This document shows, in pieces, positions 3-21,600 of a DNA stretch of 22,970 nucleotides; the first letter of the stretch is position 1, and the number at the start of each line of letters is the position of its first letter. The notes beneath the pieces are model-generated. The model saw nothing but the letters and a program-made list of their open reading frames with translations. It searched no databases and was not told the origin of the DNA. The translations under genes and the position numbers were made by a program. This stretch comes from a virus, in the IMG/VR virus record IMGVR_UViG_3300017971_000782, positions 1 through 22,970 of that record, one strand, 5' to 3'.

Positions 3-455
3 CCCGACAAAAGCGGAGATGTAATTCAGCGCGGCGCCTTTTCAGACTGGCTCAAGGCCATTGGCTCTGATTTGGTCTTGCCTATCTACTGGACACACGA
101 TCACAGCAAGCAGGTTGGCGGCAAGCTCACTGCAATGCCGATCGGCGCAACCATGCTGATCGCTCAGCGTGATGCCGGCCTGTACTTCAAGGCCCAGCTT
201 GCCAGTTCCCCCAAGGCCGCCGCCGTTGCCGAGCTTGTGAGGCTTGGCGCAGCCACTGGATCCTCAATCGGATACAGTGTGCTTGACGGCGGTGAGAAGC
301 GTATCAAAGGCGGTGGCCGCGCGTTGGAGCGGTTGGCCGTTGGAGAAATATCGATCACACCAACCGGCCGAGCAATGCACCCGGCCGCATTTGTGAGGCC
401 AGCGGCGGCCGGTGAGGCGCCAGTGGCGGAAACTCAAGAAGGAGTAGCGGCATGA
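3..455 (+). CDS. HK97-type prohead protease, 5'-truncated by the window edge
   Basis: The last 150 codons of a capsid maturation protease, which cleaves scaffold and capsid precursor inside the prohead. The visible part carries the family landmarks in order: DKSGDVIQRGAF, a WTHDH segment whose first His (codon 96-98) is the likely catalytic His, PIG, a GLYFKAQL strand, GSSIGY with the likely nucleophile Ser (codon 264-266), and EISITP followed by a MHPAAF-like end. These fit the S78/U35 herpesvirus-fold protease family. The frame is open to the left edge, so the true start lies outside the window. The stop overlaps the capsid start by 4 bases (ATGA at 452-455), which suggests coupled translation. 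Protease directly before capsid is the usual order in HK97-like head modules. The start is missing; the family call is firm. Confidence 0.9.
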   Translation, partial: PDKSGDVIQRGAFSDWLKAIGSDLVLPIYWTHDHSKQVGGKLTAMPIGATMLIAQRDAGLYFKAQLASSPKAAAVAELVRLGAATGSSIGYSVLDGGEKRIKGGGRALERLAVGEISITPTGRAMHPAAFVRPAAAGEAPVAETQEGVAA

Positions 456-2068
456 GCACGAAAGTTGACGGTATCAAGAGCACTGGCACGGCCGAGGATG
501 AACTAGCCGATCGCCTTGGCGTGACTGATGCAGACTTCACACAACTCAAGAGCGTTGAGCAAGCGGTTGACGGCCTCAAGGGCAAGGTTGACGCACTTGA
601 GGAGAAGCTTGAGAAGCTCCCACAGGACAGTCCGATCCCCGCTGAGGTGACTCAGCTCAAAGGCTCAATCGAAAAGATTGAGGGAATCCTAGGGGAGACT
701 GACAACGCCAACTGGAGTGGCGCGCTCAAAGCGATGAACGATCGCCTTGAGGCTCTGGCCACTCAGCTGCATCCTGCAGCCACTGAGGCGGCTGAGGAGC
801 TCAAGGGCTTTGCCGAATGCTTCCTTGACAGTGACAACCTCAAGAGCCAGCTGATTGACGATCCTCAGCTAATCAAGAAGCTTGCGCGGCTGCCAGGCCT
901 CAACGCTGGCAAGTCGATTGAAGGCCTGCCGGCTGTCACCTTTGGCGAGCGGCTCAAGACGGTTGACACCACCGCCGTTGGCGCTGTGCGTCAGCCGACC
1001 TATCGGCCTGGCATCGTTTCCGATCCCGAGTTGCCGCGCGGCCTAGTCAACCGCATTCCTCGGATTGTGGCGCCTGGCGCGGCCAACTGGAACGTTCCGC
1101 GGGAAACGGATGACGGGATCGCGGCCTACATCACCACCAATGCCAGCGCGGCGGTTGATGGTGATCCGACTCCCAAAAGCGCTATTCCCGTTGATTCCGT
1201 GGCAGGGTTCACGGTGGGAAGCGTGGCCCGAGTGCAGACCACTGGCGGCACGTATGAGCGCACTGTCACTGAGATCGATGAGGCCAACTCTGAGCTTGAC
1301 TTCGCAACCGATGACATTGACTTTGACATCGCTGAGGATGATGTGGTGACGGCCACCTTCTTCGGCTCCACTGGAGAGTTGCAGACCAAGCCTGACAGCG
1401 GCGCAGAAATCGAGTTGATCACCTGGGCATTCCAGACAATGGCTCTGATCATGCCGATGAGTCAGCAGGTGATCAACACTGTGGCAGGGATCGAGAACTG
1501 GGCGCAGAACAAGCTGCGCATGCGCACCATGCGCAACTATTCCCAGCACCTGCTTTATGGTGATCCCACCACCGGGAACCAGCTGCAGGGATTCAGCACC
1601 TATGCCAACGCTCAGACGTTCACCTGGAGCACTGATGGCACGGTGGGAGACAATCGCGCTGATGCCATCGTGCGAGCCTCCAACCTGATCACCTGGAGCG
1701 GACCTCAGATCGTGGTTCTTAGTCGTGGCGACATCACGAACATGAACCTCGAGAAGACCACCACCGAGGCCTACGTTCACAGTCAACTCTTTGGGCGCTT
1801 GCCGTTGATGAACCTCAACGGATCTTGGTTCCTTGGACCGTGGGAGCTATATGAGGATGATGCTGTCACGCCTGGTGATTTCTTTGTCATCAACCTGGCC
1901 GCGGCAAGTGAGATGGTTGACCAGGATCGCACCTCAATGACACCTGGCATGATTAACGATGACTTCGCAAAGAACATCATCCGCTGGCGGTATGAGGAAG
2001 TGGTTTTGCATGCCATCCTCTCGACCAAGGCCTACGTGGTAGGTGAGTGGGATTCCGCGCCCACCTGA
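452..2068 (+). CDS. Major capsid protein (HK97 fold) with N-terminal scaffold-like region and an inserted domain
   Basis: 538 residues, longer than the bare HK97 fold of roughly 300. Residues 1-130 are acidic and helical with Leu heptads (for example around VDGLKGKVDALEEKLEKL), as expected for a delta/scaffold domain removed by the upstream protease. The mature-like part includes NWNVPRETDD, KPDSGAEIELITWA, MPMSQQVIN and LLYGDPTTGNQLQGF, a typical HK97 progression. An extra domain (residues 247-303) sits just before KPDSG, which by comparison with the family is about where the E-loop lies; that placement is inference. A related domain occurs in the protein at 3865-4617. The start is set by GAAGGAG upstream and ATGA coupling to the protease. 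It is followed by a hairpin, with no overlapping gene. The protein forms the capsid shell. Confidence 0.9.
   Translation: MSTKVDGIKSTGTAEDELADRLGVTDADFTQLKSVEQAVDGLKGKVDALEEKLEKLPQDSPIPAEVTQLKGSIEKIEGILGETDNANWSGALKAMNDRLEALATQLHPAATEAAEELKGFAECFLDSDNLKSQLIDDPQLIKKLARLPGLNAGKSIEGLPAVTFGERLKTVDTTAVGAVRQPTYRPGIVSDPELPRGLVNRIPRIVAPGAANWNVPRETDDGIAAYITTNASAAVDGDPTPKSAIPVDSVAGFTVGSVARVQTTGGTYERTVTEIDEANSELDFATDDIDFDIAEDDVVTATFFGSTGELQTKPDSGAEIELITWAFQTMALIMPMSQQVINTVAGIENWAQNKLRMRTMRNYSQHLLYGDPTTGNQLQGFSTYANAQTFTWSTDGTVGDNRADAIVRASNLITWSGPQIVVLSRGDITNMNLEKTTTEAYVHSQLFGRLPLMNLNGSWFLGPWELYEDDAVTPGDFFVINLAAASEMVDQDRTSMTPGMINDDFAKNIIRWRYEEVVLHAILSTKAYVVGEWDSAPT
1190..1360 (+). other. Inserted domain in the capsid protein, paralogous to the copy at 4132-4302
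   Basis: Encodes capsid residues 247-303. A gap-free hand alignment with residues 90-146 of the protein at 3865-4617 gives 29 identities in 57, including AR..T.GG.YER.V, an N..L.FATD motif and DFDIA. At DNA level the longest exact match I see is 17 bases (1317-1333 against 4259-4275). The pattern of short beta strands with GG turns suggests a small beta-rich fold; the fold is inference. Confidence 0.8.
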
Positions 2069-2103
2069 TAGGTGAGCGCGGCTGAGCGAATCACAACCTT
2101 GAA

Positions 2104-2127
2104 CCCTGCCGGCTGATACCGGCAGGG
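2104..2127 (+). other. Strong RNA hairpin downstream of the capsid gene
   Basis: CCCTGCCGG (2104-2112) pairs perfectly with CCGGCAGGG (2119-2127) around the 6-base loop CTGATA. No T-run follows, so this is not a standard intrinsic terminator. It lies in the 77-base gap between the capsid stop and the next start. It more likely acts as an mRNA 3'-stability or processing hairpin, or as partial attenuation, so that capsid is made in excess over the neck proteins. The stem is seen in the sequence; the role is inferred. Confidence 0.6.
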
Positions 2128-2145
2128 AGAACGGAGTCTGAGAAA

Positions 2146-2394
2146 ATGGCAGTGTACGTTGAACTGATGAAAGAACGGAAAGCCAACGGCAAGGTATGGC
2201 CGGCTCGCGCTGTGTGTCATGTACCCAACGCGGTTGGGCGAGCCATGCAGCGCAACGGCCTTGGCCGCATGCTCTCCAACAAGGAAGCCAAGGCGCACCT
2301 TGAGAAGGCCGCCAAGGCGAAAGCCGCCAAGGAGGCCAAGGCTCAGGCCGAGCTTGAGAAGGCCGCCAAAGAGGCAGCCAAGCCCAAGAAGTAA
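2146..2394 (+). CDS. Small Lys/Ala-rich protein, function unknown
   Basis: 82 residues. The first half (MAVYVELMKERKANGKVW to about residue 50) looks folded. The second half is almost only Lys, Ala and Glu in EKAAK-type repeats and should be a highly charged helix. The DNA of this tail contains a 17-base direct repeat (2299-2315 and 2353-2369), consistent with growth by duplication. A GGAG sits about 11 bases before the ATG, which is a rather long spacing. The gene lies between capsid and head-tail connector, where small accessory head genes are common, so a minor head or decoration role is possible. No family was recognised. The clean placement, lack of overlap and start/stop context support a real gene. 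Confidence 0.7.
   Translation: MAVYVELMKERKANGKVWPARAVCHVPNAVGRAMQRNGLGRMLSNKEAKAHLEKAAKAKAAKEAKAQAELEKAAKEAAKPKK
2299..2369 (+). repeat. 17-base direct repeat within the Lys/Ala-rich tail
   Basis: CTTGAGAAGGCCGCCAA occurs at 2299-2315 and again at 2353-2369. Both copies are in the same reading frame and encode Leu-Glu-Lys-Ala-Ala-Lys. The intervening 37 bases are also rich in AAGGCC/GCCAAG words. It is a coding microduplication, not a mobile element. Confidence 0.7.
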
Positions 2395-2406
2395 GCGCAA
2401 GCCCAC

Positions 2407-2814
2407 GTGAGCACTCTTGCCGCATATCTTGACAGGACAGACCTCAGCGCACTCAAGGATTACTTGGGGATCACCACAGGTGATGAGGATGTTCAGCTCA
2501 GGCAGTGGTATGGCACTGCGATCGATTGGTGCGACAAGAAGCTCAGCCGCCGTGACTTCCTAGCGGCTGATGGGTTTGTAGATAACGCCCCACCCGATCA
2601 AGTCATCACCGCTGTCTATGAATTTGTTGCCACCATGCGCGGAACGGTTGCGCAAGTAAGGAACGCGCAAAGAAAGAACAAAACAGGCGCTAGGGAGGAT
2701 GAATATTTCGGGCAAGAAGCTGGCCGTGTATTCATGGCTGGCCTTGTTGCCTGGCCAAACCTTGAGCCATGGGTTGAGCAAGGCCTAGGATTCTCAAGCG
2801 CTGGGGGCTGGTAA
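2407..2814 (+). CDS. Head-tail connector protein (gp6-like)
   Basis: 135 residues, mostly helical. The opening (STLAAYLDRTDLSALKDYLGI) followed by DEDVQLRQWYGTAIDWCDKKL and a helix around PPDQVITAVYEFVATMR fits the HK97 gp6 / phage connector family. Those proteins form a ring under the portal through which DNA passes. The first start in frame is the GTG at 2407, 12 bases after the previous stop in the same frame, with no clear Shine-Dalgarno, so translation may depend on coupling to the small gene upstream. The stop overlaps the next ATG as TAATG. The C-terminal half (YFGQEAGRVFMAGLVAWPNLEPW) is less typical. The family call rests on pattern and position. Confidence 0.7.
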   Translation: MSTLAAYLDRTDLSALKDYLGITTGDEDVQLRQWYGTAIDWCDKKLSRRDFLAADGFVDNAPPDQVITAVYEFVATMRGTVAQVRNAQRKNKTGAREDEYFGQEAGRVFMAGLVAWPNLEPWVEQGLGFSSAGGW

Positions 2815-3497
2815 TGGCCTCCCGATTTGTCACCATAGACCGCCGCCGCCTGGATGCGTTCCTGTCATCAGCTGATAAGCTCAGCCGCCTTGTTCTCAGG
2901 GTGGGCATCCTGTCAGGCCGCGATCGGTATCCACGCAAGCGCAGGCACGATCCAGCTGACACCAAGCGCCTGGAGCGTCTCAGTGAGCGCGGCGGCGCTC
3001 AGACGCGGCTGGGGGCAATCCGCATGCTCAACAAGCAACTCAAGGAGCTTGGCCGCCTCCAGGGAGCACGCAAGCAACGCCAGGCAGAGAGAGAAATCAG
3101 ACGCGCTCTGAAGGCTCAAGGCCTCTCAAGCAAAGGCTTGGTGAGGCGCGGCAAGCGCGGTACTGCGGTTGCTCGCGTTGCTGGAGTGCATCAGGCTGGC
3201 ACCTCCTATCATACCGTAGCCATCGATCGGCGGCGGCCGTCATTCCGGAGAGAGCTTGATCAGGTTCAGAAGGCAATGCTTGCCGGCAAGAATGTGGCGC
3301 CGCTGATCATCTCCATGGGAGAGCGGTTTACTAAGGCAGTCAAGGCTCAAGTCAAAACAGAGGATCTCTGGGAGACCGGCCGGCTCTTTGCAACGATTGA
3401 CTTTGAGATTGTTGATCGCGTTGCCACTGAGTTCAGGAGGCGTGTTTCTCGCCAGCGCCGCGCCGCTCGGAGAGGCCGACGCAGGAGGCGCCGCTAA
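2814..3497 (+). CDS. gp10-like neck / tail-completion protein with a poly-Arg C-terminus
   Basis: 227 residues. The VGILSG segment near residue 30, the central VAGVHQAGTSYH stretch and the following RRPSFRRELD recall the VAxVHExGT...RPFLR signature of HK97 gp10 and related virion-morphogenesis proteins at the head-tail junction. The protein is strikingly basic: the last 20 residues are nearly all Arg (RRGRRRRRR at the end), and a Lys/Arg-rich helical stretch (about residues 60-105) is inserted before the gp10-like part. The basic regions could contact DNA leaving the portal, which is inference. The start overlaps the preceding stop (TAATG), and the stop overlaps the next start in the same way. 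It sits between the connector and the head-closure-like gene, as expected. Confidence 0.6.
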   Translation: MASRFVTIDRRRLDAFLSSADKLSRLVLRVGILSGRDRYPRKRRHDPADTKRLERLSERGGAQTRLGAIRMLNKQLKELGRLQGARKQRQAEREIRRALKAQGLSSKGLVRRGKRGTAVARVAGVHQAGTSYHTVAIDRRRPSFRRELDQVQKAMLAGKNVAPLIISMGERFTKAVKAQVKTEDLWETGRLFATIDFEIVDRVATEFRRRVSRQRRAARRGRRRRRR

Positions 3498-3868
3498 TGG
3501 GTCGCCCAAACGATGAGATCCCCATGGTTGCCTACCGCAGGCCAGGACAGTGGGTGAATGGTGACTGGAACACTCTTCCTGGTGTAACAGTGATCAACTT
3601 TGTCGGCGGCCGGCCTCAGCCGGCTGGGCCTGAGCTTGTGGAGATGCTCCCAGAAGGAGCGCGATCAACCGCTCGCTTTGTCTTTTGGGTGCAGGATGAT
3701 CAGCCAACGCTCCAGACGATCGATGATGATGGCACTGAGGCCGCTGACTACATTGAATGGCGCGGCTCTTATCATGTCCTGGTCTCGCTGGAGGACTGGA
3801 GCAATTTACCGCTTGGCCATCATGCCTATGCAATGATCGCGGTTGCACCTGATGAGGAGCTCCCATGA
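3497..3868 (+). CDS. Probable head-closure / neck protein
   Basis: 123 residues, predicted beta-rich. It has a YRRPGQWVNGDWN opening, a QPAGPELVEMLPEGAR segment, and an EAADYIEWRGSYHVLVSLEDW end. That arrangement (G-x-W, QP, L-P-E-G, D-x-x-x-W-x-G-x-x-Y-x-V) resembles small stopper/head-closure proteins that seal the connector in siphoviruses and myoviruses. The gene lies between the gp10-like and terminator-like genes, the usual slot. Start and stop both overlap neighbours (TAATG at 3495, ATGA at 3865). The functional call is by pattern and synteny only; it could be another neck component. Confidence 0.55.
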   Translation: MGRPNDEIPMVAYRRPGQWVNGDWNTLPGVTVINFVGGRPQPAGPELVEMLPEGARSTARFVFWVQDDQPTLQTIDDDGTEAADYIEWRGSYHVLVSLEDWSNLPLGHHAYAMIAVAPDEELP

Positions 3869-4617
3869 GCCTCAGCGCAACCAGTCCACAAGAGACGATC
3901 CGGGCCTGGATTGAGTTTGTCCTAGGCATCCCCGTGATCAATGCCGAGCAAGACGATCCCACCGCGCCGCGCCGCCTCAAGGAGGCTGAGGTTGACACCT
4001 ATGCCGCGCTTGAGATTGCCTCTGATGACTCCACAAGCTCAACCAACTATGAGCACACTGGAGCAGATGAGATCAACACAGTGGCTGAGGAGGAAATCCT
4101 CGGCAGTGTGACACCTGCCAGTGAGATTGAGGTGGCCAGCGTCTTTGGCTTTGACCTAGACACGATCGCACGGTTTGAGACAGCTGGAGGCAACTATGAG
4201 CGCGCGGTGGTGAGCGTTGATGCCGTCAACAAGCTCCTGCAGTTTGCGACCGATGCGCTTGACTTTGACATCGCTCTACTTGATACGGTCTTTGCCCAAG
4301 ATACCGTTGAATACACAGATTCTCTGATCAGGCGTGGTGACATGCCTATTGAGTTTTATGGTCAGAACGCCTGGGGATATGCCCGCGCTTTGCAGCTGGC
4401 CATTGGCGGGCCAAGCTATTTGAACACTTTCTCAAACCTCAATATCGCCTTGGCGGTAAGAGGAGAAATCACCGATGAGCCAGTGCTGCGCTCTGCCACT
4501 CGTGAGACTGGCGCCAGCATGATGCTTGGCTTTGAATGGACTGACAGCGCAGCTGGCGCTATTGGAGCGGCCGCAGAAGTCGAAATTGACGCAACGGCTA
4601 TGGAGGAATCACCATGA
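3865..4617 (+). CDS. Tail-terminator-like neck protein (LIC_12616 type) with an inserted domain
   Basis: 250 residues. Residues 1-50 (TIRAWIEFVLGIPVINAEQDDPTAPR) and the C-terminal part from about 155 (IEFYGQNAWGYARALQLAI, NIALAVRGEITD, ETGASMMLGFEWTDS) fit the LIC_12616/gp12-like neck family, whose members cap the tail tube. The family core seems split by an extra segment of roughly 100 residues. Within it, residues 90-146 are paralogous to the insert in the capsid protein. Position directly before the sheath gene supports a tail-terminator role. The start is fixed by the ATGA overlap with the upstream stop, and the stop overlaps the sheath start in the same way. The family call is moderate; the insert similarity is seen directly. 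Confidence 0.6.
   Translation: MSLSATSPQETIRAWIEFVLGIPVINAEQDDPTAPRRLKEAEVDTYAALEIASDDSTSSTNYEHTGADEINTVAEEEILGSVTPASEIEVASVFGFDLDTIARFETAGGNYERAVVSVDAVNKLLQFATDALDFDIALLDTVFAQDTVEYTDSLIRRGDMPIEFYGQNAWGYARALQLAIGGPSYLNTFSNLNIALAVRGEITDEPVLRSATRETGASMMLGFEWTDSAAGAIGAAAEVEIDATAMEESP
4132..4302 (+). other. Inserted domain in the terminator-like protein, paralogous to the capsid insert at 1190-1360
   Basis: Encodes residues 90-146 of the terminator-like protein. It shares ARxxTxGGxYERxV and FATDxxDFDIA with capsid residues 247-303. DNA identity is concentrated at the 3' end (17 exact bases), while third positions elsewhere differ. This implies an old duplication or independent capture of one domain family rather than a recent copy. 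Confidence 0.8.
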
Positions 4618-5993
4618 CTTGGAACAACAACGTGATCGTGGTCATCATTGATGATGCCCTTCCGGTTGAGGCGCTGAGCTTTGGCGTTCCTCTTCACCTC
4701 ACTGAGGATGTCACCTTTACAGAGCGTACCAGAGTATACGACTCGGCCACCGCCGCTGAGCAAGACTCAACGGTTGGAGCCACCGCGCTTGCTGCAGTGC
4801 AAGCACACTTTGATCAGCGGCTGCACTCTCCCACGATCAAGCTCGGCCGCCGTGAGGCTGATGTGGCTCAGGTTGGCACTTGGACGATCACAGGAACGCC
4901 AGCCGAGAATGATCAATTTGAGATCACCATCAACGGCATTGACGGAAACTACACTGCAGGAGCCGCAGAAGATGCCACCGCCGTTGCTGGCGCGCTGAGA
5001 ACTGCACTGACCACCGCCGTTGCCGGTGAGGATGTCACAGTGGGTGGCACTGGTACTGACATCACTGTCACCGCTGACAACGCTGGCGAGCCGTTCACCT
5101 ACTCCAGCACCTACACTCCCATCAGTCCCCCTGGCGCCTCTGGCATCACTGAGGTGCTCACCACCGCCAACGTCAATGCGGCCACTGAACTGGCTGAAAT
5201 TGTGGCTAAGGACAATGCCTTCTACGGCATCACTATGGCCGCGCGAGATGACACTGACATCCTGTATGTTGCGGCCTGGGTTGAGTCTCAGACCAAGATC
5301 TTTATGGCCCAAAGCTCAACGGCGGCCGTGCTCACTGCCACCGCTGGCAACGTGCTTGAAACGCTCATGGCCAACAACTATGGCCGCACTGCCTATTGTT
5401 GGCACCACGATGACAGCGAGTACCTTGACGTTGCATGGATGGGCTTCGCGCTCCAGTGTCCGCTTGACACAAAGAGCACGATTTGGGCTTACAAGCAGCT
5501 TGTTGGCGTGACTCTCAAGGATCCTGCCATCACGCCAACCGAGCAACAGAACGTGGCCGATGATGATAACTCGGCATACGGGAACCTGTACCTTGATTTC
5601 GGCGGCAATGGCGCAACCGGAATGGGGCGCACTGTTGATGGCCAGCCGATCGATCGGCGCACAACCAAGGACTGGTGGGAGGCTCGCTTGCGTGAGGAGA
5701 TGATCCAGATCCTCCTGGATGCCTCCAACCGCAATGAGAAGATCCGAGACACTGACAAAGGCCTTGACGTTTTCCGCGTTGGAGCTGATGCAGTGAACGG
5801 CCGCGGTGTCTCTGCTGAGCACTTCGCTGAGGTGCCTGCCCCCACTGCCACAGTCACGCCAGTTGCCAACGTGCCGACTGACGATCGCAACAAGCGCAAG
5901 GTGCTTCTGAGCCTGGCGGCCTACTGGGCCGACGGCGCTGAGCGAGTCGAAATCCAAGCGAGCATCACAAGCCGTCAGATCGTCTCGGCCTGA
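4614..5993 (+). CDS. Contractile tail sheath protein (DUF3383 type)
   Basis: 459 residues. The N-terminus (VIVVIIDDALPVEALSFGVPL, then RTRVYDSA and a HFDQRLHSPTIKLGRR strand) and the C-terminal half (KSTIWAYKQLVGVT, LYLDFGGNGATGMGR, DWWEARLREEMIQILL) fit the DUF3383 sheath family of small myoviruses. Residues 86-182 form an extra beta-rich module (GTWTITGTPAENDQFEITING through a Thr/Val/Gly-rich stretch), placed between the conserved N-terminal part and ATELAEIVAKDNAFYGI. It probably decorates the outside of the sheath. The protein surrounds the tube and contracts to drive DNA injection. The start overlaps the previous stop (ATGA). A 60-base gap with two hairpins separates it from the tube gene. 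The presence of this gene defines the phage as a myovirus. Confidence 0.85.
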   Translation: MTWNNNVIVVIIDDALPVEALSFGVPLHLTEDVTFTERTRVYDSATAAEQDSTVGATALAAVQAHFDQRLHSPTIKLGRREADVAQVGTWTITGTPAENDQFEITINGIDGNYTAGAAEDATAVAGALRTALTTAVAGEDVTVGGTGTDITVTADNAGEPFTYSSTYTPISPPGASGITEVLTTANVNAATELAEIVAKDNAFYGITMAARDDTDILYVAAWVESQTKIFMAQSSTAAVLTATAGNVLETLMANNYGRTAYCWHHDDSEYLDVAWMGFALQCPLDTKSTIWAYKQLVGVTLKDPAITPTEQQNVADDDNSAYGNLYLDFGGNGATGMGRTVDGQPIDRRTTKDWWEARLREEMIQILLDASNRNEKIRDTDKGLDVFRVGADAVNGRGVSAEHFAEVPAPTATVTPVANVPTDDRNKRKVLLSLAAYWADGAERVEIQASITSRQIVSA

Positions 5994-13632: not shown

Positions 13633-14207
13633 TGCCCGTTGACTCCCTTGATCATACCGTTGAGATGGACACCTACGATCGCGCTCAGTGGAAAAAAAAG
13701 CCAGTCCGGGCGGCAATGCGCAAGGTGATTGGTGATGAGTTGAACCTGGCAGAAGGCTTGCTCCAGGACGTTCTCAACAACAGTTCTCTTGATGCTGCAG
13801 AAGGAGACCTCCTCAACAAGTATGGCCGCCTGGCGCGCGTTGACAGGCTCGGCCGCACTGATGATGAATACCGCCGCGTGATTCGGATCGCCATGCGAGC
13901 CAATGACTCTGAAGGTGGGATCGACGATGTGCTATTTGTGGCCAGCGGCTTAGTTGGCGAGCCATGCCGCTATCAGTGGCTGAGTCCTGGGAACTATCAG
14001 CTGACCTATGAGACCAGCACCTCACTTGATCAAGTGTTCCTTGATGAGGCGCTGGAGTTGATCACAAGGGCCAACCCCCCTGGCGTCAGCTGGATTCTCA
14101 TTGAGGTCAGTGACATCGGAGAGGGCAAAGACTTTGACGGTGGGCCTGATGGCCAAGGCTTTGAGGATTACCGCTTTGCAAGGATCATAGGTGGCAGCAA
14201 TGTCTGA
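13632..14207 (+). CDS. Baseplate protein, DUF2612-like (gpI position)
   Basis: 191 residues. The core LDAAEGDLLNKYGRLARVDRLGRTDDEYRRVIRIAMRANDSEGGIDDVL fits the pattern LD.aeG..Ld..G......R...dd.YR.li......n.s.Gt shared by DUF2612 and related gpI-like wedge proteins. The C-terminal part is beta-rich with a short Gly/Asp tail (GKDFDGGPDGQGFEDY). Such proteins join gpJ to the fibre and usually sit right before the fibre genes, as here. The start overlaps the gpJ-like stop (TGATG), and its end overlaps the next gene by 8 bases. Confidence 0.75.
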   Translation: MPVDSLDHTVEMDTYDRAQWKKKPVRAAMRKVIGDELNLAEGLLQDVLNNSSLDAAEGDLLNKYGRLARVDRLGRTDDEYRRVIRIAMRANDSEGGIDDVLFVASGLVGEPCRYQWLSPGNYQLTYETSTSLDQVFLDEALELITRANPPGVSWILIEVSDIGEGKDFDGGPDGQGFEDYRFARIIGGSNV

Positions 14208-15537
14208 GCAACCCAGCGAGCGGCCGAGCACTGATCTGAATTGGTGTGAAGGAGGAACGCCAAACCAAGTAACAGAGCCGAGCGCCAAACGCGCGGCTGG
14301 CTGGTATGAAGGCTCAGCGCCTGGCGCTGGAGACGCTGATAAGCATCCGGCAGGCTTTGAGAATTGGCTCAACAGAGAGCATGGCCGGCACTTTGATCAC
14401 CTGGAGGCCATTAGCCCGCGTCAGTTTGAGGATCTTGTTGATCTCTGGGATGTCACTGAGGTGCCAGCGGTTGGCGATCTTGTGCGCATTGTGCCGCCGT
14501 CAGGCACGTTGCGCGGCCGAGTTGCGCCATATTGGTCTCAGACCACAACGGCAACAGGCGGTGGAATCATTGGCACACCATGCACAGACAATGAGCGGAT
14601 TTACTATCGCTCAGGCACTCTCACTCAGAGTGTTGTTGCTGCCAGTCTTGCTGATGGCTCTGAGCTTTGGGAGCAAACGCCAGGCAACACAATCAGAGGC
14701 CTTTGCTGTGATGGGGCATACATTTATTGGTCACGTCAATCAGTGTCTGGCCTTGAGCAAAGAGTGAAATCAACAGGAGCCTCAAGCGCCAGCGGCGGCA
14801 CGACTGCAGGAGCTGACGCGCTGGCATCAAATGGTGCCTATGTTGTTGGAGTTGAGGGATCAGGCGGCGGCGGCGCTGGCGTTGTCACCTTCTGGCAAGT
14901 CAGCGCAGCCTCAGTGACTCAAACCGGTACCGTTTCAACTGGCTCGGCTGCGCTGGCTGCCTCAGCGATCGATGATGTGCAGTGCTACGTTGGAGGCACT
15001 CGCTCAGGAACCACAGATCTCTGGGCATACACTCTCAGCACAAGAGCCAGCGCTTGGACTGCTCAATTGAGCACTGCGGCGGCCCCCACCGTCAACTCAA
15101 TCTGCACTGATGGTGATGTGGTCTACGTTGGCACTGACCGCGTTGCCACCGCCTCAGGCTTTGCCAATGTCTTTGCGGTTGAGCGGCTCACAGGCCGCGT
15201 GATGTGGGAGCTTGACGTAGGAGCAACCGTTAACGTTGACCACGTTGAGGTTGATGATCGGTATCTCTATGTGGTCACTGATGCCTTTGGCCTGTTTGTC
15301 TTCAAGCTGCGCCATGCGGCACCTATCCCACCGCTGATCCTCACCGGGCCTGGCACCTGGAATGACATTTGCGTTGATGGGATCAGCGTGATTGGCGGTG
15401 ATGGATCGTCACCCAATGAAGACTTGCGCCGCGCTTGGATCGGCGGCGCCTCACGTCTTTTCCAAAGGGTTGCCGGCAATGATGTTGAGCGGCGGCCGTT
15501 TTTTACTCAAAACATCCCAATTGATGGGAGGGTCTGA
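14200..15537 (+). CDS. Tail fibre-like protein with a PQQ-type beta-propeller
   Basis: 445 residues from ATG 14200; an in-frame ATG at 14191 inside the previous gene is less likely. Residues 1-90 form a tail-attachment-like region with P/W/G-rich spacing (STDLNWCEGGTPNQVTEPSAKRAAGWYEGSAPG, then HPAGFENWLN), a layout common in baseplate-linked fibres. Residues about 125-430 contain repeated blades of the kind GLCCDGAYIYW, SICTDGDVVYVGTD, VEVDDRYLYVVTDAFG, and DICVDGISVIGGDG, each followed by A/S-x-DGxxLWE-like strands. This fits a PQQ/WD-like beta-propeller. It is the first gene after the wedge and probably builds or tips a short fibre. The propeller fold is inferred from the repeats. Confidence 0.65.
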   Translation: MSEQPSERPSTDLNWCEGGTPNQVTEPSAKRAAGWYEGSAPGAGDADKHPAGFENWLNREHGRHFDHLEAISPRQFEDLVDLWDVTEVPAVGDLVRIVPPSGTLRGRVAPYWSQTTTATGGGIIGTPCTDNERIYYRSGTLTQSVVAASLADGSELWEQTPGNTIRGLCCDGAYIYWSRQSVSGLEQRVKSTGASSASGGTTAGADALASNGAYVVGVEGSGGGGAGVVTFWQVSAASVTQTGTVSTGSAALAASAIDDVQCYVGGTRSGTTDLWAYTLSTRASAWTAQLSTAAAPTVNSICTDGDVVYVGTDRVATASGFANVFAVERLTGRVMWELDVGATVNVDHVEVDDRYLYVVTDAFGLFVFKLRHAAPIPPLILTGPGTWNDICVDGISVIGGDGSSPNEDLRRAWIGGASRLFQRVAGNDVERRPFFTQNIPIDGRV

Positions 15538-16807: not shown

Positions 16808-17088
16808 GCAAATATGAGGACATTGCCCCGAACGTATCCAAGGTGATTGATCAGGCCTCTTTCACGGCCGATTTCCCACCGCCGCCTGAGCCAGAGCCTG
16901 AGCCTCCAGCGCCAGCGGCCGCGCTAGCACTGCAGCTGTATCAGCGCATCAGGGATGGCATCAAAGAACGCTCTGTGCCTCACTTTGAGATTGCCAGAGA
17001 TCTTGGCATTCCTGTCAGGTGGGTGCGTGTTTTCCACAGGGAGATTCAGCGCGCGTTGGCTCTCTTGGAGGCCAGTCGTGAGCAGTGA
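16804..17088 (+). CDS. Small protein with Pro-rich linker and HTH-like C-terminus
   Basis: 94 residues. After a short acidic start (MSKYEDIAPNVSK) comes a linker of Pro/Glu/Ala (residues 25-42, PPPPEPEPEPPAPA). The last 50 residues are helical and contain HFEIARDLGIPVRWVRVFHREIQ. The helix-turn-helix spacing (a helix, DLGIP turn, then a second helix with VRWVRVF) is suggestive of a DNA- or protein-binding unit, though it may just be a helical pair. It is coupled to the previous gene (ATGA) and overlaps the start of the fibre gene at 17078. Such small genes next to fibres can be assembly chaperones. No family was recognised. Confidence 0.5.
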   Translation: MSKYEDIAPNVSKVIDQASFTADFPPPPEPEPEPPAPAAALALQLYQRIRDGIKERSVPHFEIARDLGIPVRWVRVFHREIQRALALLEASREQ

Positions 17089-18808
17089 TCTCCCCATCAC
17101 TGCTCAGCCAGTGCTTGACCTGCGTTTCTTCCTGCGAACTTTGCGTGACTATTCTGGCAATGGGAATCACGCCAGTGTTGCCGGCTCTCGGCCATACTGG
17201 CAAAGCATTGGCCAAGTGGATGCGCTCGGGTTCCTGGCAACTGGCCGGCTGACCGTTGCCGACTCGCCTGAGCTTCAAGGGACATCAGGCACGGTGCTTC
17301 TTGCTGGCCAGTGGCTCAAGAATGCCGTTGATGCAATCATGTTTTCAAAGCGTGATGCTGGCGGCACTCAGTTTGAACTGGGCACTAGTTCCATTGCCGG
17401 ATCGCTCAGCCTCTATGATGGCTCAGCCGTCAGAACAGCCGCGATTGACTACCCAGGCGCCAGGACACTGGCAATCACCTGGAACAGTGGGGAGGCTGCC
17501 AAGGCCTACAAAGACGGATCCTTTGTGGCTGACTTCTCTGGAGTCTCAACAATCACTGTCAATGATGCGCCGCTCATCGTCGGTAATTTCTATGACGGTT
17601 CGCTCCCCCATCCTAATCAGGTTTCATGGGTTTGCTTTTTTCCAGAGGTGCTGAGCGCTGATGAGTTGGCGGCGCTCCATGCGTGGTGGCTCAACAAGCA
17701 CACAGCCGATCTGAGATGGCCAGGGATGGGTTATCGCTATCCGCGCGGCCGGATCAATATCGTTGCTGATGGAGACATGGAGGCAGAAGGTGTTTCTTCG
17801 TGGGCTGCACTTGGCGGCGCGCTTCTGACAAAGAGCACTTCCAATCCATATCAGGGAGCTCAGTCGTTACAGGTAGAAAAAACCACCGCATCAAATCCGT
17901 ATGCACGTCAAACATGCCTCACCCTGGGGAAGCGTTATGACATCACGGGGAGAGCATGGAGCGATGGCAATGCCACCCCATATCTATATTGCGGAGGTGC
18001 AAGCGCTGATTGGATCGGCACCACCGATCCAGGATGGCAAGTGATTTCCATTGAAAACGTCAAGGCCGATGGCGCGTTCCTTGCTCTACAAGCTGTTGGC
18101 GGCGCGGTCGGATCATACTGCCGATTTGATGACATCATCATCTCAGAGATCAACGCACCATATGAGCCAGAGGCTCCAGAGCCACTCTTTGTTGACAACC
18201 TCCAGACAGCGCGGCCTAGCATTGCCAATGAAGGTGGCTCGCGCGGCCAGGCACTGGCAGCAACAGACTACTTGACCAGCGATTCAACAGGCCGCTGGAG
18301 TCTTGATGAGGAGAGCAACGGCCGCCGCGTCTTGCGCTCTACACTAACCAGCAACATTCACCGCCGCTCTCTTGTGGCGCTTGATGCAACTTGGATCGCT
18401 CAACTCAAAAAATCCGGAGACAGTAGCACTGTCTACTGGATGCCCATCGCGACGATCCCAGGCTCATACATTGAGAGCGGCCAAGATGGCTATCTTGTCA
18501 TTCTGAATAGTTCTGAACAGATTGTGCTTTACCGCGTGACCAATGGCGGCCTTGCTACTCTCTATACCTCTCCAACGGCATACATTGATCCGACCGGTGA
18601 ATATGAAATCAAGCTACAGCGCAGTGCTGCCGGTGTTTTCTCTTTGTGGATTCGCGGCGGTTCGTTTGCCGCCTGGACACTTGCAGAGGTGCTCACTGGA
18701 GCAAACCCAGTGACTGATGCTGTTCATCAGACCTCAAAATACTCAACATTCACGATCCAGACCTCAGGCCATCTGGCCGCCGATCGTGTGTTCGAAGGCC
18801 TTGTGTAG
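17078..18808 (+). CDS. Fibre-like host-recognition protein with a LamG-type lectin domain
   Basis: 576 residues. The GTG at 17078 is chosen because TTGGAGG lies 6 bases before it and it overlaps the previous stop; an earlier ATG at 16955 falls inside that gene and adds a poorly credible leader. Residues about 10-210 form a concanavalin/LamG-like domain: VLDLRFFL, DYSGNGNHAS, TLAITWNSGEAAKAYKDGSFV, IVGNFYDGS, FFPEVLSADELAALHAWW. Residues 227-358 resemble a carbohydrate-binding beta-sandwich (NIVADGDMEAEGVSSW, QGAQSLQVEK, CRFDDIIISEI). Residues 370-576 form a third, Ser/Thr-rich beta part. The protein probably binds a host surface glycan. There is no visible N-terminal tail-attachment segment, which is odd for a true fibre. 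Confidence 0.7.
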   Translation: MSSDLPITAQPVLDLRFFLRTLRDYSGNGNHASVAGSRPYWQSIGQVDALGFLATGRLTVADSPELQGTSGTVLLAGQWLKNAVDAIMFSKRDAGGTQFELGTSSIAGSLSLYDGSAVRTAAIDYPGARTLAITWNSGEAAKAYKDGSFVADFSGVSTITVNDAPLIVGNFYDGSLPHPNQVSWVCFFPEVLSADELAALHAWWLNKHTADLRWPGMGYRYPRGRINIVADGDMEAEGVSSWAALGGALLTKSTSNPYQGAQSLQVEKTTASNPYARQTCLTLGKRYDITGRAWSDGNATPYLYCGGASADWIGTTDPGWQVISIENVKADGAFLALQAVGGAVGSYCRFDDIIISEINAPYEPEAPEPLFVDNLQTARPSIANEGGSRGQALAATDYLTSDSTGRWSLDEESNGRRVLRSTLTSNIHRRSLVALDATWIAQLKKSGDSSTVYWMPIATIPGSYIESGQDGYLVILNSSEQIVLYRVTNGGLATLYTSPTAYIDPTGEYEIKLQRSAAGVFSLWIRGGSFAAWTLAEVLTGANPVTDAVHQTSKYSTFTIQTSGHLAADRVFEGLV

Positions 18809-19837: not shown

Positions 19838-20036
19838 TGCCATGATCCTTGGATTGATGACCCTTGGCTTTTCCGTGATCTCTGTCACTGTGGCCGCAAC
19901 GTGGTATCTTGGCCGAGCCATCGGCAAGGCCTACGGTCATGCTGAGTTGCAGGTCAAAGAGCACACAAAGCGTTGTCGCCACTATGCTCCAGGCCCGGAT
20001 TACGGCCATGGGTTGGCCAAGAAGGAGACACCATGA
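19830..20036 (+). CDS. 68-residue single-TM protein, candidate holin/lysis protein
   Basis: The start has a good Shine-Dalgarno (AAGGAGAG about 7 bases before the ATG). Residues 5-30 are one hydrophobic segment (LGLMTLGFSVISVTVAATWYLG). Residues 31-68 form a charged, His/Lys-rich tail (KEHTKRCRHYAPGPDYGHG). It lies directly before the lysin and shares an ATGA with its start. One-TM holins and inner-membrane spanin subunits have this size and position. Topology is uncertain: there is no basic residue before the TM, but several after it. Confidence 0.55.
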   Translation: MSDAMILGLMTLGFSVISVTVAATWYLGRAIGKAYGHAELQVKEHTKRCRHYAPGPDYGHGLAKKETP

Positions 20037-20842
20037 GCAACGAAGACAAAACAGAGCCGGCAGAGCCGGCCGCCAGCGAAGCACCAAAGGCGCCAGCCAC
20101 AAAGACGCGCAAGCGAAAGAAGACCAAAGGGCCAGCGCTGCAGGTTGTGCCAATGCGCCGCGGCCTTGCTTGCGATTCTGCCACCGCTCCAACGCGAAAA
20201 CAGGCTGAGGCCGTCTATGATGCAGGGTTCCGCACCTGGTTTCGGTACGTTGATCGCGTGCTCGCGGATCCGGACAAAGACAAGCGATGGCCTATCAACC
20301 TGACGCGGCCAGAGCTGGCGATGCTTCTTGATGTCGGCTTTGATGTTGGGTTGGTTCAATACTACTCAACCGGATACGAGTCTCAGGAGCGCGGCGCGCG
20401 GCTCTGTGGCGCCTATGGTGAGCAACTCGGCTCCATTGCCTCAGCCAACGCCAGGCGGCTTGGAGTGCCTCAAGGCGTGACGATCTTCTGTGATGCTGAG
20501 GACTGGATCAGGCTGCCAAGCAAGCTGCATGGTTTCCAGTATCTCAACCGCTGGAGCGCGGCAAACGTTGCCGCTGGCGATGAGCCAGGCCTGTACTACG
20601 GTGCGAACATGGGCAATGAGCGCGCTGAATTCTTCACAGGCGCTGACCTCTATGGGTTGCCTCGGTTCCGGGCCTACTGGAAGTCAATGGGGTATTGCCC
20701 ACACATGCCGCGCCGCGGGCCAACCATGGTTCAAGCGCCGCCAGTCAAGGTTGCTGGTCTGGAGCTTGACCCGAACGTCATCACGCTTGACGGCAAGTGG
20801 CTTAGCAGTCGTTATCGGTTCAAGGTCATTCGGGCCGCTTGA
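20033..20842 (+). CDS. Putative lysin, DUF1906/Rv2525c-like glycoside hydrolase-type domain
   Basis: 269 residues from ATG 20033, which has GAAGGAG upstream and an ATGA overlap with the previous stop. Residues 1-40 are a charged, Pro/Lys-rich linker (TKTRKRKKTKGP), not a signal peptide. Residues 43-255 match the DUF1906 pattern: RRGLACDSATAPTRKQAEAVYDAGFRTWFRY, GFDVGLVQYYSTGY, GARLCGAYGEQLGSIASANA, VTIFCDAEDW (Asp154, Glu156 and Asp157 near the putative active site), GLYYGANMG, and FRAYWKSMG. The domain relates to GH25-like hydrolases thought to cut peptidoglycan. It sits between small membrane proteins and a second wall enzyme. Without a signal it would need a holin to leave the cytoplasm. 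Activity is not proven for this family in phages. Confidence 0.65.
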   Translation: MSNEDKTEPAEPAASEAPKAPATKTRKRKKTKGPALQVVPMRRGLACDSATAPTRKQAEAVYDAGFRTWFRYVDRVLADPDKDKRWPINLTRPELAMLLDVGFDVGLVQYYSTGYESQERGARLCGAYGEQLGSIASANARRLGVPQGVTIFCDAEDWIRLPSKLHGFQYLNRWSAANVAAGDEPGLYYGANMGNERAEFFTGADLYGLPRFRAYWKSMGYCPHMPRRGPTMVQAPPVKVAGLELDPNVITLDGKWLSSRYRFKVIRAA

Positions 20843-20967: not shown

Positions 20968-21600
20968 ATGATCCCACTGATAATCACCACGCTGAGCGTG
21001 CTCTCTGGAGCAACGCAGGCCGATCGGCTGGCGGCCTATATATCCAAGCGCCAACCGCTGGCGCGCTCCTACGCGCGCCTCCTTGCCTCTCAGACGATCG
21101 CGGCCGGCAAGCGGCACAGTATCAAGCCTGCAACCTTGCTGGCTGTGGCCTGGGTTGAGAGTCGTTTCAAGCGTTGCGCAAAAGGCAAGGCTGGAGAGTA
21201 TGGCCTTTGGCAACTAAGGCCGCGTGATGCTCGCATGGCGCGCGGCTGGGCATGGCTGCAGCGCTCAGGCCTTGTGCCTGGGTTCCCAGTGTCTCCCTGG
21301 CGCCAGCTCTCCCTGAGGGTCAAGCGGCGCGCGCTCCATGACATCAAGGTCTCAGCCGAGTTGGCCGCAACCGAGTTGGCGGCCGTCAGAGCATGGTGCC
21401 GCCGCGCTGGCCATCGCATTGGCCGCGGCGCGCGGCGGTGGGTCAAAGGCGCTGATGGAGTCAACAGGCTCACAGCGCGGCGCCATGGCCATTGGATCGA
21501 TCGGTTTGGCCATCACCAAACAGGCGGCCGCTGGCCACGCGGATACTATGTAAGAGGATTGCGGCGCGAGTATAGCCGCATCAGACGCGCTATACAGTGA
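20968..21600 (+). CDS. Lytic transglycosylase-like wall enzyme (SLT domain) with a probable signal or SAR segment
   Basis: 210 residues. Residues 1-18 (MIPLIITTLSVLSGATQA) look like a Sec signal with an AxA-type cleavage site, or a signal-arrest helix, but lack the usual N-terminal Lys/Arg. Residues 40-90 hold the SLT core: KRHSIKPATLLAVAWVESRF with the catalytic Glu (residue 64 in VES), then GEYGLWQLRP (GLWQ motif, residues 79-82). The C-terminal half is very Arg-rich (RRWVKGADGVNRLTARRHGH). It should cut the glycan strand between MurNAc and GlcNAc. AAGGAG lies 8 bases before the ATG but after the terminator, so expression needs read-through or antitermination. Its 3' end overlaps the convergent gene by 11 bases. 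Confidence 0.75.
   Translation: MIPLIITTLSVLSGATQADRLAAYISKRQPLARSYARLLASQTIAAGKRHSIKPATLLAVAWVESRFKRCAKGKAGEYGLWQLRPRDARMARGWAWLQRSGLVPGFPVSPWRQLSLRVKRRALHDIKVSAELAATELAAVRAWCRRAGHRIGRGARRWVKGADGVNRLTARRHGHWIDRFGHHQTGGRWPRGYYVRGLRREYSRIRRAIQ

Follow-up and report, generated by a model that had tools for sequence, protein, structure and literature searches.

Extra domains are common in the capsid and tail proteins of phages, and there are precedents both for an insert in the E-loop of a capsid protein and for an extended tail terminator. Near the three-fold axes, the capsid E-loop extends across the adjacent subunit (PMC10276861), and in T4 this loop carries an insertion domain, the I-domain, which was proposed to contact a neighbouring subunit (PMC5701804). 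The terminator gp99 of phage 812 has an outer beta-sandwich domain that holds the sheath clamped to the tail tube (PMC12886913). The loop between strands beta2 and beta3 of lambda gpU (the 'E-loop', or extended loop) attaches the tail tube (PMC10721106), and the tip of the terminator hairpin of R4C enters a groove of the tail tube (PMC10276861). Ig-like domains (Big_2, I-set and FN3) attach to several classes of virion protein, among them those of the capsid and of the tail tube (PMC9022992). In Milano LP1 and the R4C adaptor, small Ig-like beta domains are located at the capsid surface or around the neck, and are thought to stabilise the particle or to bind cell surfaces (PMC10491603, PMC10276861).

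The window examined here, that is, the whole 22,970-base stretch, is a fragment of the genome of a tailed bacterial virus that is known here from its genes alone. It encodes one homologous domain in both the major capsid protein and the tail terminator (Table 1), an arrangement within one virus that was not found in the literature searched. Like the T4 I-domain, the first copy is an extra domain at the E-loop of a capsid protein, here one assigned to the HK97 fold by homology; however, none of the solved chains is matched in sequence by the profile built from the two copies. The T4 terminator gp15 is not known to carry the I-domain. The second copy resembles the outer domain of phage 812 gp99 in that a terminator bears an extra domain outside the common core; the two systems differ in that the available text on phage 812 does not report the beta-sandwich domain in the 812 capsid protein (PMC12886913). 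Ig-like domains likewise provide one domain type on several virion proteins, but the five virion classes listed in the review exclude the tail terminator (PMC9022992), and the copies described here match no Pfam family. The domains of Milano LP1 and R4C differ as well, being parts of separate linking or adaptor proteins and not of both the capsid protein and the terminator.

Table 1. The two insert-bearing proteins and the adjoining sheath, with positions in the window.
Feature	Position	Strand	Basis or remark
Major capsid protein, HK97 gp5 type, 538 aa	452..2068	+	PF05065, phmmer to HK97 gp5, S78 protease 5'
Inserted domain, copy 1	capsid residues 226-303, 1127..1360	+	E-loop tip directly before KPDS; ungapped homology to copy 2
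Tail terminator (neck) protein, 250 aa	3865..4617	+	Profiles, gene order, predicted core fold
Inserted domain, copy 2	terminator residues 69-146, 4069..4302	+	beta2-beta3 loop (entire loop about 56-154); ungapped homology to copy 1
Tail sheath	4614..5993	+	PHROG 205, E 8e-60

Several other genes of the window were also noted. A small basic protein of 82 aa (2146-2394; net charge +12), with a tail rich in K, A and E and with no PHROG match, is encoded just 3' of the capsid gene. A tail-region protein encoded after the baseplate genes (14191-15537) has a match to the profile of PQQ_2/BamB beta-propellers (PF13360, E 3e-7), and a putative tail protein (16955-18808) shows a weak match, below the cut-off, to the carbohydrate-binding family CBM_4_9 (E 2e-4). 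The lysis candidates are an Rv2525c-like glycoside-hydrolase-like protein (19973-20842) and an SLT transglycosylase (20968-21600).

The sequence-only reading had aligned capsid residues 247-303 with residues 90-146 of the neck protein, without gaps and with 29 identities in 57. This alignment was reproduced together with its placement on the DNA, where capsid residue 247 begins at base 1190 and terminator residue 146 finishes at base 4302, and was found to lengthen to 76 ungapped residues, 37 of them identical (49%), between capsid residues 226-301 and terminator residues 69-144. The local alignment score was 166, compared with a maximum of 76 among 500 shuffles, and phmmer gave E-values of 2e-14 and 6e-15. 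With the neck protein as query, a genome search recovered the capsid copy at E about 1e-16 (9.7e-17). The identity of the DNA flanking the shared stretch drops to background, and the insert boundaries in Table 1 are uncertain by about 10 residues. The motifs ARxxTxGGxYER and FATDxxDFDIA are kept in both copies, and both copies are strongly acidic, with net charges of -13 and -12. Among the frames of at least 60 aa in the window, the two-sequence profile matched only the capsid and terminator copies, and no third copy was detected.

The assignment of the capsid protein is supported by its match to PF05065 (Phage_capsid, Pfam; 44.3 bits against a cut-off of 24.2, E 1.9e-11), by its phmmer matches in the PDB to the HK97 gp5 structures 1ohg and 2gp1 (E about 1e-6), and by a prohead protease gene located immediately 5' of the capsid gene (Peptidase_S78, E 7e-11; bases 3-452). 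The structure model of the capsid protein reached a pLDDT of 35, and the HK97 fold was assigned by homology alone. The E-loop stretch, taken from the conserved R of an RDL-like motif to KPxS, comprises 121 residues here versus 38-39 in 81 relatives, this being the number in which the same motif was located. The flanks of the insert were observed to align with both strands of the E-loop hairpin. The flank alignment and the difference in length thus confirm the earlier placement of the insert before KPDSG, at the E-loop, and the short stretch of the 81 relatives rules out that the segment is an ordinary part of the capsid family.

The 250-aa neck protein is a tail terminator, as judged from profiles, gene order and the predicted core fold. 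It scored 29.4 bits against PF23961 (Pfam, cut-off 27) and 28.5 bits against NF047498 (NCBIfam, cut-off 28), and its gene lies directly 5' of the sheath gene, an order that matches those of DIBBI, phiEt88, M7 and Meifeng. The core of the structure model, mostly with pLDDT of 70-94, shows the order helix, beta1, beta2, extended loop, beta3, helix, beta4, beta5. The model was found to be similar to XM1 gp5 (Z 13.3, rmsd 3.6, 134 residues), to the E217 gateway protein gp29 (Z 12.7, rmsd 3.7, 130 residues) and to lambda gpU (Z 9.1, rmsd 3.4, 122 residues), with which the strand order agrees. In the model, residue 55 is the last of strand beta2 and residue 155 the first of beta3; residues 56-117 and 143-150 have a pLDDT below 50. 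The stretch from Y46 to G166 comprises 119 residues here versus 40-46 in 11 aligned relatives, and most of the relatives' genes located directly 5' of the sheath gene encode 159-202 aa. The terminator of one relative (L023) aligns only to residues 15-55 and 156-243, passing over the insert. The proposal that the insert splits a LIC_12616-like core is therefore upheld by the family profiles, the L023 alignment and the loop lengths, and the 40-46-residue loop of the 11 terminators excludes an ordinary part of this family. Four frames of 227-262 aa located directly 5' of sheath genes (L054:5707, L063:5685, L065:1186 and L066:635) were considered as larger terminators; by motif they read as GIY-YIG-like homing endonucleases, and are therefore not insert-bearing relatives.

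As far as sequence comparison reaches, both segments are inserts and not core parts of either family, a status judged against proteins at roughly 14-30% identity because the phage has no detected close relative. Together with the homology, the sites of the two segments and their absence from both families bear out the claim that a single homologous domain is present in two virion proteins that are otherwise unrelated. Each insert is located at the tip of a beta-hairpin that extends to a neighbouring subunit or ring. The terminator loop, which was equated with the R4C hairpin by strand order and without superposition, corresponds to the one that docks the tube in lambda gpU, and the capsid E-loop reaches its neighbour; the module has therefore been placed twice at the tip of a contact hairpin. 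The absence of the domain from the known relatives of either protein suggests one add-on part used twice.

How widely is the domain distributed? No third copy was detected in 50,697 phage records, 2.9 million viral contigs, the records of 48 relatives or 767 bacterial genomes, and no close relatives of the capsid protein, the terminator or the domain were found in IMG/VR. All tblastn matches of each copy to the phage records had E > 1, a DNA pattern for FATDxxDFDIA gave zero matches, and the full capsid protein had no match among plasmids. Run without a positive control, the domain profile matched nothing in the whole records of the 48 relatives and gave one match (E 6e-4) in the bacterial genomes, searched as sets of 369 and 398. 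The frame of this bacterial match overlaps a long gene on the opposite strand, and the match was taken as chance. A regular expression for a GFxxGD-type beta module, applied to the fetched loci, found the capsid copy only. A short match in another locus (L003), inside a 326-aa frame with no demonstrated virion role, was rejected. The domain has no credible family match in Pfam, PHROGs or NCBIfam, and neither copy matches Big_2, I-set or FN3 in Pfam at E-values up to 10. The best E-value of the two-copy profile against PDB sequences was 0.8.

The tail sheath served as the family anchor for finding relatives and matched 483 phage records. A gp5-type capsid was present in none of the 89 loci carrying a related sheath, and one of the 86 loci with a related capsid showed a sheath match, which was weak (E 0.001). 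The capsid module and the DUF3383-type sheath/terminator module are therefore from different lineages. On this sampling of sequences, the interval 452-5993 of the window appears to unite two modules otherwise seen separately, with the insert missing from the sampled relatives on both sides. Synonymous sites are saturated between the copies (pS 0.65, dS about 1.5, dN 0.58), and the codon is shared at 17 of the 37 identical residues, versus 14.1 expected by chance (P 0.20). Since synonymous sites have been randomised while nearly half of the protein residues remain identical, the event is old and the protein sequence has been constrained since. An identical 17-base run, TTGACTTTGACATCGCT, is found at 1317-1333 and 4259-4275, within both copies; its length exceeds that given by random codon choice (P 0.004, noticed post hoc), and it may be left from a later exchange or be due to chance. 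One copy probably gave rise to the other, or a single donor supplied the two, once the capsid and tail modules had come together in this lineage, and the copying would have occurred long enough ago for the synonymous sites to become randomised.

What could be the function of a domain carried at both places? The reading favoured here, to which we give slightly less than an even chance, is that the window encodes the same strongly acidic domain twice, as a unit of about 75 residues that folds independently and is used as a built-in clamp at two hairpin tips. Its established basis consists of the homology, the insertion, the two sites, the absence in relatives, the age and the constraint on the protein sequence; independent folding, exposure and the clamp function, as well as the direction of copying, are what we infer. 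The domain would have been inserted at the tips of two outreaching loops: in the capsid protein this is the E-loop, and in the terminator the extended loop that joins beta2 to beta3. Copy 1 would most likely hold adjoining capsid subunits together around the local three-fold axes; the most likely role of copy 2 would be to secure the terminator ring to the tail tube or to the sheath. By analogy, a clamp is the most likely role, given the position of the copies and the precedents of the T4 I-domain and the phage 812 terminator. Because this loop of the terminator is where the tail tube docks in lambda gpU and in R4C (PMC10721106, PMC10276861), the insert should point tailward, and a direct head-to-neck link is therefore unlikely.

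The main rival to the clamp, considered unlikely, is binding of both copies to the same ligand, either a phage decoration protein or a glycan of the host or environment, which would give head and neck the same decoration. The 37 of 76 residues kept despite randomised synonymous sites include the polar motifs ARxxTxGGxYER and FATDxxDFDIA, as a common partner would suggest, although the conserved residues may instead be structural. Weak binding to glycans has been proposed for the Ig-like domains carried by several virion proteins of phages (PMC9022992, PMC10491603), and the basic protein encoded just 3' of the capsid gene is a candidate partner for the acidic domains on charge and position. However, since the terminator loop contributes to docking of the tail tube in both lambda and R4C (PMC10721106, PMC10276861), the sheath may cover or flank the insert. 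That a single ligand, whether the basic 82-aa protein or a glycan, coats head and neck through one domain serving as a virion-wide docking site is doubtful. Contact between the copies themselves, with the capsid copy binding the terminator copy and tying the head to the neck, is very improbable: homologous domains can pair and the same virus encodes both, but the net charges should repel, the loop bearing copy 2 touches the tail tube in lambda (PMC10721106), and adaptor and stopper rings separate the capsid from the terminator in known necks (PMC12886913, PMC10491603).

The copies might also share no task, a promiscuous accessory domain having entered each gene independently through neutral or loosely selected traffic. 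Ig-like domains are widely exchanged among virion protein classes (PMC9022992, PMC10276861), and the saturated synonymous divergence is compatible with two separate acquisitions. However, the lack of a third copy in all of the phage, viral, relatives' and bacterial collections searched is unlike a promiscuous domain, and the 17-base run is more than random codon choice would give; independent entry is considered unlikely. Virtually no weight is left for chance similarity, or for an ordinary part of both families, which are already refuted by the alignment score relative to the shuffles and by the absence of the segment from the relatives of both proteins.

This virus offers an internal experiment, in which one module is placed in two mechanical settings. 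The hairpin tips of two unrelated folds appear to be tolerated entry points for whole domains, which may be useful for capsid and tail display.
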